Assembly (NCBI GenBank): GCA_004000155.1
Contig: RCSS01000485.1
Location: 1-25,748, forward strand
Direction: 5' to 3'
Length of the DNA: 25,748 nt
Source of the DNA: Tubulinosema ratisbonensis
Lineage: Eukaryota; Microsporidia; Tubulinosematidae
Shown here piece by piece: positions 4,747 through 16,042 of this stretch. The position numbers and the translations under genes were made by a program. Below the pieces are notes generated by a model. It searched no databases. It had not been told where the DNA came from and worked only from the letters and a program-made list of their open reading frames with translations. How positions within the stretch are numbered: position 1 is the stretch's first letter; each line of letters opens with the position of its first letter.

Positions 4747-5472
4747 ATGGTGTTTGGCAAAATAACAATGATTCTGTTTATTAATTTAGTTTTCTCAGCA
4801 AATAAAAAAGAAGACAAAAATGAAATGTTTGATATTAATCCAATAAATGATTTCAATAAAAGGCCTATTCAAGGAAATCCTAGGAAAGATGAAGAAAGAC
4901 AATGTTTACTAGAGGTTGAAGAATGTAAAGAAGCAGGACAGGAAACAATTCAAGTGGCAAGACCAATATTATTAGAGAGAAAAACAAACGAATTTATAAA
5001 TTTTGAAGAAGAAATCAAAATAGCTACACCCAAGGAGAATAAAAAACCAACTGAAGAAAAAGAGGAAGAAAAAAAGGAGGAAGGAAATGAAAAAATTGAC
5101 GAAAAAAGTACAAAAGAACATTGTCAACAAAAGGACTACGATGTTCAAGAAATCGAAGATAGTCTAAAAGAAAGTGAGGAAGAAAAAGATGATAAACAAG
5201 ACGACGATGTTAAAGAAATCAAAGTTAGTGAAGAAACAAGTAAAAATGGAAATGACGATAACCAAGCTAGAGATGAAGAAGCTGAAGAAAAAAAAGAAGT
5301 TGAAGGATTGGTTGAAAACGATGAGAGTACAGAAACGGTATATAAAGAATATATTGGATTACAACAAAAATTTATATTTATGCTTAGAGTTTTACGTGGG
5401 TTATCTGCGGTTAGTCCTTATTTAGGAGGTTTGCTTACGGGGTATTTCCTTTACAACTTATTGCATAAGTAA
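4747..5472 (+). CDS. Hypothetical acidic protein with signal-like N-terminus and hydrophobic C-terminus
   Basis: A 241-aa protein of unknown family. Residues 4-18 are hydrophobic and resemble a signal peptide ending near FSA. Residues about 20-200 are highly charged and low in complexity, with runs of Glu, Lys and Asp, and are likely disordered or helical. Residues about 208-238 are hydrophobic with Gly and Pro (LSAVSPYLGGLLTGYFLYNL) and probably form a membrane segment or hairpin, ending in LLHK. The layout would fit a single-pass or tail-anchored membrane protein with a long acidic lumenal or cytosolic region. Unlike two other genes here there is no CCC motif before the ATG, and an in-frame ATG at residue 8 is an alternative start that keeps the hydrophobic segment. 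A continuous ORF this long in such AT-rich DNA, plus the three-part layout, argues for a real gene. Function is not inferred. Confidence 0.7.
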   Translation: MVFGKITMILFINLVFSANKKEDKNEMFDINPINDFNKRPIQGNPRKDEERQCLLEVEECKEAGQETIQVARPILLERKTNEFINFEEEIKIATPKENKKPTEEKEEEKKEEGNEKIDEKSTKEHCQQKDYDVQEIEDSLKESEEEKDDKQDDDVKEIKVSEETSKNGNDDNQARDEEAEEKKEVEGLVENDESTETVYKEYIGLQQKFIFMLRVLRGLSAVSPYLGGLLTGYFLYNLLHK

Positions 5473-10621: not shown

Positions 10622-10670
10622 ACGTTAATTAAATAGTTAAATAAAAAAATCAAATTTTTTTAATTAACGT
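10622..10670. repeat. Perfect 12-bp inverted repeat upstream of the 10705 gene
   Basis: ACGTTAATTAAA at 10622-10633 and its exact reverse complement TTTAATTAACGT at 10659-10670 are separated by 25 A/T-rich bases. The right arm ends 34 bases before the ATG at 10705. It could be a protein-binding site, a hairpin in the 5' leader, or a chance event in AT-rich DNA. The CG-containing outer ends make pure chance less likely. Confidence 0.5.
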
Positions 10671-10704
10671 CACATACAAATAAATAAAATTCTGTGAGAA
10701 TATC

Positions 10705-11572
10705 ATGAATAGATTCCTAAGATTTTATTTGCTTTATTGTTGTTTCAATTTAATAGAAATAATAGTTTATACCATATACGCTAAAATATTAATTAAATAT
10801 TATTTAAACTTAGGAGTCAAAACACCGGGTAGCGTAATATATGGTATAACTGGATTTTTCTTTGGTAACTTTGTAAGCTTTACAGCCTTTTCATATGCTT
10901 TTTTGGCTTTAAATCACAAAGCTCTTTTGCTGTATCTTTATTTTACAGTATTTATATTTTTGTATTCAGCATTATTGTTACCTTATTCAGTAAAGCCCTA
11001 TTTAGTTCTTGGGTTTTTGCTTCCGTTGGTAGGAGAATATTTTTTTGTACTTAAAAACTTTGACTTATATGCTCGCAAAATTATATTTCAACGTAATAAA
11101 AAATTGGGTTCTAATTTAAAATTAAAACGAGCTTTAAATGTAAGTGAAAATATAATTAGATAAGATCTATGACTATGGTTACTAGAACAGTTGCATATAT
11201 TTACATCTATAGAATGTTGTTTGCCAATTTTGTTGCTGGGGAGGTTTATCCGAAGCAATCACATAAAAATAATTATTTATTACATTCACTAATTGGAATA
11301 GATCTGCTTTGTTCATTATATGAGAAATATGAAAACAAAATTATCAAAACTATTTCTTGGTTGTGTGTCTTAGGTATTAGCATTTTCATAATGATGGTTA
11401 TGATTCTTAAATGGCATTGTATGAAAAGGTAAGTATAATTTTAATTAGATTTGATAAAATAAGAATGGGACAGGATTTGGCCAGGATGATTATATATTTT
11501 TGTTTTACAACTTATGACTTTTATATTTTAGGTTCGGGGTTAAAAGAGTATCATAGAACTTATAATGTTTAG
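10705..11572 (+). CDS. Multi-pass membrane protein with two candidate 20-nt introns
   Basis: Read as join(10705-11139, 11160-11428, 11449-11572), giving 275 aa. Without splicing the locus shows a 152-aa ORF ending at 11163, an 87-aa ORF at 11169-11432, and an open tail to TAG at 11570-11572. Removing GTAAGT...TAATTAG at 11140-11159 (phase 0) puts the second ORF in frame. Removing the similar 20-mer at 11429-11448 eliminates its TAA stop and adds 40 residues. Hydrophobic segments lie at about 7-28, 43-66, 72-94, 96-114 and 209-228, with a weaker one at about 248-262. A basic stretch at about 124-142 follows the fourth. I do not recognise the family. There is no CCC motif before the ATG; an inverted repeat lies just upstream. 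If splicing is wrong, the alternative is two adjacent small membrane-protein genes 5 bases apart. An alternative 3' splice site at TATATTTTAG ending 11531 would give a shorter C-terminus. Confidence 0.6.
11140..11159 (+). other. Candidate spliceosomal intron 1, 20 nt
   Basis: GTAAGTGAAAATATAATTAG: a consensus 5' site GTAAGT, a TAAT branch-like element fused to the 3' AG, length 20. It lies between codons 145 and 146. Excision restores the frame into the ORF starting at 11169; retention leads to TAA four bases after the intron. Confidence 0.55.
11429..11448 (+). other. Candidate spliceosomal intron 2, 20 nt
   Basis: GTAAGTATAATTTTAATTAG: the same length, the same 5' hexamer and the same TAATTAG 3' end as intron 1. 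It splits an Arg codon (AG|A). The in-frame TAA lies inside it, and excision opens a further 40 codons to TAG at 11570-11572. Confidence 0.5.
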
Positions 11573-14842: not shown

Positions 14843-16042
14843 ATGTTTCTAAAAATCATTTCTGGTTTATTCGTTCATTACTTAATACCATCAATCATAG
14901 TACTTTATATCATTGCTATCATCAAGACATCAATTGAAAAGAAAAGAATAGGAAAACCTACCAAAAGTAAAACTTATGACATTTTCACACAAAAAAGTTC
15001 TAGTCATCTTGAGATAGAAATAAAGGCATACAATGCTATAATTTCTTATCTGGCAATACCAATTTTTTTTTATTCATTGATTTTTGGTTTTGTTTTGGTT
15101 AGTTTTTATGATTTTGATACGAGTCAACCTTTTTCCTTTTCTTATTTTTTTGACATCACTAAAAAAAAATGTGACCAGATGCTTCTTCCTGGTTATAAAC
15201 AAAACCGCTTTTTGATACAAATAATTATTTACATAATTACAAATAGTTTGATACCATTTCAGACAATTTCTTACCTAATTTTTACTTTAATGATCAGATC
15301 TGATAGTTTCTTAGATTATTGGGGCAAAAAATTGGATTCTTATGATATCAACATTGTTCATATTCTTTTATTTTTTACGCTAACTGTTTTTCTTTCACTT
15401 TTAGTTAGCTATTTTTATTTGTTTTTTCTTTCTATGAAAAAGTTAAAAACAGTACCTGAAAAATGCATTGAATTAGCATCAAAACATTTTGATTATGTTG
15501 GTTATATTGAAAGTGATAATCAATTTAACGTAATGAATGGTCCTATCTTTCATAAACAAGCTTTATTATTTTTGGGAGATTCACATTTTTTAGAAGAAGA
15601 CGAACTCTACGCGATTATTCTACACGAAATTGGACATGGTGGCAATTCAAGAATACACCTAACATTTCTAACAAATCTTATAATTAAGCTTATTTTCATT
15701 ACGATGTCATATTATCTTTCAATGCTTTACACAAAAGAGTTCTTTAATTACAATCATAGTTTATGTTTGGTATTTTTCAGTTGGACAGTTCCTGCGGTGT
15801 ATTTTTATGATAATATTTTAAATAATTATCTTAACTATAAAGAAGAATTTTTATCTGATTATTATGCGATCAAAAATGGTTATGGTAAACAGCTGATTTC
15901 TGCTTTGATAAAGTTATCATATAAAAACAAAATGTACAATAAGTTAAATTATTTCACAAATCTTATCATTTCCACACATCCTTGCAATTATTCACGAGCC
16001 TTGTTTTATGATAAAATAGAAAATCAACCAGAAAACGTTTAA
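14843..16042 (+). CDS. STE24: CAAX prenyl protease 1 (Ste24-type zinc metalloprotease, M48)
   Basis: A 399-aa integral membrane zinc protease that removes the C-terminal -AAX residues from prenylated CAAX proteins in the ER membrane; in yeast Ste24 also trims a-factor. The zinc motif HEIGH lies at residues 261-265 within LHEIGHGG. The downstream third-ligand region EEFLSDYYAIKNGYGKQL (334-351) corresponds to Ste24 EYEADAFAxKLGY, with Glu335 the likely ligand and Asp339 conserved. The C-terminal STHP at 377-380 matches the STHPP..R signature. Hydrophobic segments at about 7-28, 65-88, 122-150, 170-197, 275-297 and 307-322 fit the multi-helix barrel of the family. It is somewhat shorter than yeast Ste24 (about 450 aa), as expected for a reduced parasite. 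The ORF is intact with no frameshift, and the CCCC motif supports the start. It is the only gene here with a confident function. Confidence 0.93.
   Translation: MFLKIISGLFVHYLIPSIIVLYIIAIIKTSIEKKRIGKPTKSKTYDIFTQKSSSHLEIEIKAYNAIISYLAIPIFFYSLIFGFVLVSFYDFDTSQPFSFSYFFDITKKKCDQMLLPGYKQNRFLIQIIIYIITNSLIPFQTISYLIFTLMIRSDSFLDYWGKKLDSYDINIVHILLFFTLTVFLSLLVSYFYLFFLSMKKLKTVPEKCIELASKHFDYVGYIESDNQFNVMNGPIFHKQALLFLGDSHFLEEDELYAIILHEIGHGGNSRIHLTFLTNLIIKLIFITMSYYLSMLYTKEFFNYNHSLCLVFFSWTVPAVYFYDNILNNYLNYKEEFLSDYYAIKNGYGKQLISALIKLSYKNKMYNKLNYFTNLIISTHPCNYSRALFYDKIENQPENV

Follow-up and report, generated by a model that had tools for sequence, protein, structure and literature searches.

Evidence for 20-nt spliceosomal introns in a membrane-protein gene, within a set of 19–20-nt introns, in the microsporidian Tubulinosema ratisbonensis

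The stretch of Tubulinosema ratisbonensis DNA analyzed here (25,748 nucleotides of contig RCSS01000485.1, hereafter the window) carries a gene whose reading frame is interrupted twice by sequences of exactly 20 nt that share the ends GTAAGT and TAATTAG. The locus raises the question of whether sequences this short are introns and, if so, whether they are confined to this gene. T. ratisbonensis is a microsporidian of Drosophila with a draft genome of 7.56 Mb in 952 contigs (PMC6675976), and the genome-wide counts given below cover 4.1 Mb in 236 contigs of that draft. Based on the sequence comparisons described here, we consider the two 20-mers to be, with a probability of roughly 95%, genuine spliceosomal introns (U2-type, GT-AG) of a predicted multi-pass membrane-protein gene, and part of a set of 19–20-nt introns that also occur in ribosomal-protein genes, immediately behind the ATG.

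In the window, the pattern GTAAGTN7TAATTAG matched on either strand only at these two places, and none of 100 dinucleotide shuffles contained any match. GTAAGT by itself was at chance level, with 13 sites vs 11.34 expected. None of the four remaining plus-strand sites (3126, 8183, 13089, 24353) falls in a plus-strand ORF that starts with ATG and reaches 60 aa or more, and one of the seven minus-strand sites (19651) falls in a probably spurious 64-aa minus-strand ORF. A preliminary description of this DNA had pointed to the two 20-mers, had placed the other GTAAGT sites it noticed outside the accepted genes, and had proposed that removal of both copies joins a 152-aa ORF, an 87-aa ORF and an unassigned open stretch into one gene. 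These statements were borne out: both ORFs exist as described, excision of both 20-mers yields a frame of exactly 275 aa (Table 1), and each retained copy brings a premature stop, giving 152 aa if the first is kept and 235 aa if the second alone is kept. The joined protein has about six hydrophobic segments in a simple hydropathy scan, and everything beyond the fourth of these would be lost if the first 20-mer were retained. Pfam and structure-relative searches with the membrane protein gave no Pfam family above threshold and no solved relative.

Table 1 Features of the intron-bearing gene in the window. C95, C60- and C60+ (minus and plus strand of C60), C179, C184 and L052 are the related copies described in the text; P0003 is a public protein.
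Feature	Position	Strand	Evidence
Spliced gene, 275-aa predicted multi-pass membrane protein	10705..11572, including stop	+	Joined frame, paralogues, dN/dS
Exon 1, 145 codons	10705..11139	+	dN 0.118, dS 1.095 vs C95; P0003 63% identical
Intron 1, 20 nt, phase 0, GTAAGTGAAAATATAATTAG	11140..11159	+	Position shared with C95 and C60-; missing from C184 and C179
Exon 2, 269 nt	11160..11428	+	Spliced frame: dN 0.153, dS 1.302 vs C95
Intron 2, 20 nt, phase 2, GTAAGTATAATTTTAATTAG	11429..11448	+	Position shared with C95, C60- (19 nt) and C60+; missing from C184 and L052
Exon 3, 124 nt including stop; encodes the C-terminus and the final hydrophobic segment	11449..11572	+	dN 0.186, dS 1.276 vs C95; collinear with L052 and C60-
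TAATTAG of intron 1, putative branch point fused to the 3' splice site	11153..11159	+	TAATT-N0-AG of the T. hominis expression; resembles E. cuniculi CTAAYTT
TAATTAG of intron 2, putative branch point fused to the 3' splice site	11442..11448	+	TAATT-N0-AG of the T. hominis expression; resembles E. cuniculi CTAAYTT

About 30–50 nt 5' of the ATG, at approximately 10655–10675 of the window, lies the block TTTTTAATTAAYGTCACA, which is common to C95 and C184 and is a possible promoter element. Elsewhere in the window, positions 14843–16042 (+) hold an M48 peptidase gene (399 aa, Pfam 8.5e-8), and two plus-strand ORFs at 1445–2626 (393 aa) and 4747–5472 (241 aa, Lys/Glu-rich) have hydrophobic N-termini and no Pfam match at E 0.1. 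The window was also scanned for Rfam families and tRNA, and nothing was detected.

Both interruptions recur in related genes of the same genome. A paralogue on C95 (76% identical) has the two introns at the same two places, each 20 nt long, and a paralogue on the minus strand of C60 (C60-, 24% identical, with seven or eight hydrophobic segments in a simple hydropathy scan) has them in the same alignment columns, with lengths of 20 and 19 nt. The C60- protein is collinear in spite of its 19-nt second intron, which rules against a translated repeat because 19 nt would shift the frame. On the plus strand of C60 (C60+), intron 2 is present with 20 nt and the 5' part reads N. Contiguous intron-free counterparts were found as well, at both junctions in C184, at junction 1 in C179, where exon 1 runs directly into exon 2 and the copy is then decayed, and at junction 2 in L052 (the end of C95), which is read through. 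Between the window contig (C165) and C95, dN/dS was ~0.12 over the joined frame, third codon positions took the largest share of the changes in each exon (53/90, 37/63 and 16/32, respectively), and every joined exon is under purifying selection.

A profile search for the membrane-protein family returned three proteins, namely the 152-aa ORF of the window, TUBRATIS_006060 (P0002) and P0003, and no public protein of ~275 aa; a search with exon 2 gave no relative. P0002, with 159 aa, is the C60- gene read into the retained intron. It is identical to C60- exon 1 but is listed on a contig of length 37914 vs 28077 for C60; it may come from a second copy outside the 4.1 Mb. P0003 ends VSKILIR-LDI after a conserved ALN. 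By the genetic code, such an ending would result if this site held a 20-nt GTAAGT-N7-TAATTAG and the next exon began with IRY.

A genome-wide search for such sequences inside conserved genes, as the preliminary description had asked for, was carried out with the pattern GTAAGTN{0,30}TAATTAG, and the reversed pattern served as control. It gave 22 matches vs 14 for the control. Nine of these were 20 nt long, four were 19 nt long, and the other nine were spread across 17–35 nt. The control rate predicts ~0.9 matches in two length classes, vs the 13 observed at 19–20 nt (P ~2e-11); without the seven matches of one paralogue family, which are non-independent, six remained vs 0.9 expected (Poisson P ~3.5e-4). 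A gene frame was restored by 12 of the 13, which lie in the genes for eS1, eL43 and eL39, an Arv1-like gene, a gene for a small membrane protein (C231), and the window gene with three paralogues; the exception, a 19-nt match on C107, restored no frame. Donor and 3' motif are uniform across these introns since the search demanded GTAAGT and TAATTAG. No assignable joined frame resulted from any of the nine matches of other lengths. Longer GTAAGT matches on C40 (22 nt) and C138 (26 nt) lie between open stretches that would add up to 22+73 and 21+47 codons, respectively, without an assignable gene. With the wider 3' motif TAANTAG, 41 matches were obtained vs 45 for the control, and inspection of 15 of the 19 extra ones (all except C177, C179:18457, C224 and C225, and including all four that were 19–20 nt long or ended in TAACTAG) gave no convincing joined frame. 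Other donors, searched as GTNNGT...TAATTAG, gave 51 matches vs 79 for the control, and the five non-GTAAGT ones of 19–20 nt, which were the ones inspected, restored no frame.

The introns proposed in the preliminary description are indeed in a membrane-protein gene, but they are not peculiar to it, and the same 19–20-nt class stands directly after the ATG of three ribosomal-protein genes (eS1, 20 nt; eL43, 20 nt; eL39, 19 nt). The joined products had Pfam matches of 7.6e-56, 8.1e-36 and 1.7e-15, respectively, all well beyond the family cut-off, and their residues 1–228, 1–78 and 1–52 were aligned with the solved ribosome chains 6zu5_SB0, 6rm3_LPP and 6rm3_LLL, each alignment starting at the first one or two residues. 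The 6zu5 structure is the Paranosema locustae ribosome, and 6rm3 is presumably a microsporidian ribosome too. In the Arv1-like gene, removal of a 19-nt intron places the junction after residue 27, inside the Pfam match (1.4e-14, residues 3–86). The 20-nt intron at C231:7625–7644 (L021/L044) joins a 109-aa protein. Across the junction this protein weakly resembles the small subunit of serine palmitoyltransferase (E 0.03), and it has a LIM-like start; both matches are below the cut-off, so that C231 is suggestive only. The joined eS1 (C154, L006) is 100% identical over 218 aa to the public record '40S ribosomal S1 [Tubulinosema ratisbonensis]' (P0004), which lacks the first 12 residues and starts at an internal Met; we attribute this late start to the 20-nt intron after the ATG having been missed. 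The eS1 relatives P0005–P0007, among them one of Anncaliia algerae, have the same internal Met start, and these protein records hint that their genes may carry the same intron. TACCC stands 5–6 nt before the start codon in the three intron-bearing ribosomal-protein genes (L005, L006, L022) and resembles the CCC-like start signals of microsporidia; the window gene is without it. The 4.1 Mb held no spliced copies of the genes for eS1, eL43, eL39 or the Arv1-like protein. Ribosomal protein S23, whose gene has a longer, spliced intron in Spraguea lophii and Trachipleistophora hominis (PMC3749934, PMC4654818), was not found in the 4.1 Mb.

The two window introns combine a GTAAGT donor with an AG end, which makes them GT-AG sequences with the donor consensus of a U2-type intron. 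Both match the microsporidian intron expression GTA[AG]GT...TAATT-N{0,4}-AG published for T. hominis (PMC3486916) in its zero-spacer form, and the other ten match by construction; the branch point reported for E. cuniculi is CTAAYTT (PMC2483917). Each intron would thus consist of a GUAAGU 5' splice site, 6–7 A/U-rich nucleotides and a fused branch point/3' splice site UAAUUAG, with the branch adenosine probably inside the last motif. Removal of the 20-mers would be carried out by the spliceosome, which would join the three exons into the 275-aa protein, and a transcript with intron 1 or intron 2 unremoved would give the truncated protein of 152 or 235 aa. Prp8 is encoded in the 4.1 Mb (PROCN domain, 2.4e-19), as is a U6 snRNA (57.9 bits), found as a single copy (C15:13838–13935 (-), L053:1501–1598). 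A U2 snRNA was not found; the same search was blank in control genomes too and is hence uninformative. The microsporidian SSU rRNA model (RF02542) gave nothing in the 4.1 Mb. The U6 carries ACUGAGA in place of the family consensus ACAGAGA. In the spliceosome, this box pairs with donor positions 4–6, and ACU is the exact complement of AGU at positions 4–6 of the GUAAGU donor, which suggests the hypothesis that the U6 box and the donor have covaried. A wider proposal, which we advance tentatively, is that Tubulinosema, and perhaps all Tubulinosematidae, may possess a length-locked minimal class of 19–20-nt introns, in which the GUAAGU donor would have co-evolved with U6 (ACAGAGA to ACUGAGA, with full pairing to donor positions 4–6) and individual introns would be gained and lost precisely, as whole units, from one paralogue to another, probably via cDNA.

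The copy on C184 (L047:1440–2388) is an uninterrupted 275-aa gene in which both 20-mers are missing exactly at the predicted junctions. Its first part is a C95-like exon 1, with 2 mismatches within the gene; it switches from C95-like to C165 somewhere in 21 nt that the two genes share, and then matches the spliced C165 exactly over 489 nt, across both junctions and up to 63 nt after the stop. The published assembly merged genomic contigs with contigs from 54-nt RNA-seq reads, by IDBA-UD and then CAP3 (PMC6675976), and for this reason we read C184 as probably a chimeric spliced-transcript contig merged into the assembly; a chimera of this structure fits short-read transcript assembly by these programs. 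Other contigs of the T. ratisbonensis assembly may hold similar hybrids. The flanks of C184 are unlike those of C95 and C165, save for a brief similarity farther out in the 3' flank, and intron-free junctions occur in C179 and L052 as well, as would be expected if C184 were a real genomic gene that has lost both introns via a cDNA intermediate. Given the chimeric structure, we regard a true locus as unlikely, by something like one part to three. As a true locus, C184 would most simply be a cDNA-derived copy, which would also need precise splicing.

A different possibility is that the introns are real but mostly retained, with the truncated 152-aa protein and its four hydrophobic segments as the main product and splicing as a minor or regulated event. 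Inefficient splicing is reported from other microsporidia: in V. culicis, with 27 intron-bearing genes, it is mostly inefficient with a median of 25.3% (PMC4435813), and values of ~20% for the small introns of E. cuniculi are cited in PMC10542269. The public P0002 corresponds to the retained form, but as a hypothetical protein it does not count as protein evidence. Purifying selection acts on exons 2 and 3 to a similar degree as on exon 1, and in C95 the retention of intron 1 would lead to a stop after two residues; predominant retention is accordingly rather improbable in our view. The broken frame in the DNA is the sole point in favor of a pseudogene with two frameshifting insertions, or of programmed frameshifting or bypassing. 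Such readings have very little probability in view of insertions that share one splice-site consensus, that occur at the same places in paralogues and also in ribosomal-protein genes, and that are exactly absent from C184, and the dN/dS speaks further against a pseudogene. The common ends of the 20-mers might also mark them as copies of a short element, mobile or repeated, but these ends comprise no more than the 5' splice site and the branch/3' splice motif. The inner 6–7 nt are unlike one another in all 12 gene-assigned introns, and none of the nine matches of other lengths could be placed in a recognisable gene, so that this origin is the least probable of all. The preferred reading of the 20-mers as spliceosomal introns is backed, with regard to their identity, position and length and to the joined frame, by the paralogues, the ribosomal-protein genes with solved relatives and the C184 copy.

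In sequence, the T. ratisbonensis introns are like the short introns of Encephalitozoon cuniculi, Nosema ceranae, T. hominis and Vavraia culicis, with a GTAAGT-type donor and a TAATT-type branch point adjoining AG. As in other microsporidia, the 5' end of a ribosomal-protein gene is a frequent location (PMC3749934), and eL39 is a known carrier (PMC3486916). In contrast, introns of E. cuniculi measure 22–76 nt (PMC3629993) and 17 long-read confirmed introns of Hamiltosporidium have a mean of 28 nt (PMC10542269), whereas 12 of 12 gene-assigned cases here are 19–20 nt long. They hence fall outside the E. cuniculi size class, which is not defining for microsporidian introns. Also unlike other microsporidia, two introns lie deep in a membrane-protein family, whose relatives were found only in the T. 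ratisbonensis genome and as P0003. In T. hominis, 85 introns were predicted by motif and splicing at the motif is reported for one gene only (PMC4654818), and in S. lophii two of eight intron-like sequences, both longer, were spliced, and the other six were unspliced in the transcriptome (PMC3749934). Because motif-predicted microsporidian introns are often unspliced, our case relies not on the motif but on the frames, the paralogues and C184. The S. lophii sequences resemble the present ones in being short and in mostly adjoining the start codon of a ribosomal-protein gene; unlike in S. lophii, retention here would truncate or frameshift the protein.

Outside microsporidia, introns of 16–17 nt in mikrocytids, 18–21 nt in the chlorarachniophyte nucleomorph and 15–16 nt in heterotrich ciliates have been described (PMC10245619), and those of T. 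ratisbonensis are similarly very short with a narrow length range. Mikrocytid introns, too, have a highly conserved sequence and belong to a reduced spliceosome, and M. mackini has 224 introns (PMC10245619) vs 12 here in 4.1 Mb; introns of the Bigelowiella nucleomorph are without a 5' splice-site motif, unlike the GTAAGT of T. ratisbonensis. The suggestion that 20 nt is at or below the known minimum thus applies within microsporidia, relative to the 22–76 nt of E. cuniculi, but not to eukaryotes at large. Among the matches listed in a literature search covering titles and the beginnings of abstracts, no earlier report of 19–20-nt microsporidian introns was found, and priority is not established. 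The T. ratisbonensis genome announcement, in its text up to the reference list, makes no mention of introns (PMC6675976).

Taken as spliceosomal introns, the 19–20-nt sequences form a compact set that extends the known microsporidian kind of intron and founds no new one. In both of the cases seen, the public T. ratisbonensis record gets an intron-bearing gene wrong, eS1 by its late start and the membrane protein by being cut at a retained intron. RNA-seq (PRJEB31246 / PRJNA494796) was published along with the genome (PMC6675976), and the intron claim is directly testable on these reads. The set would extend the lower end of microsporidian intron length to 19–20 nt, and it would be a small, clearly delimited set on which to test the minimum intron length that a reduced spliceosome can process.
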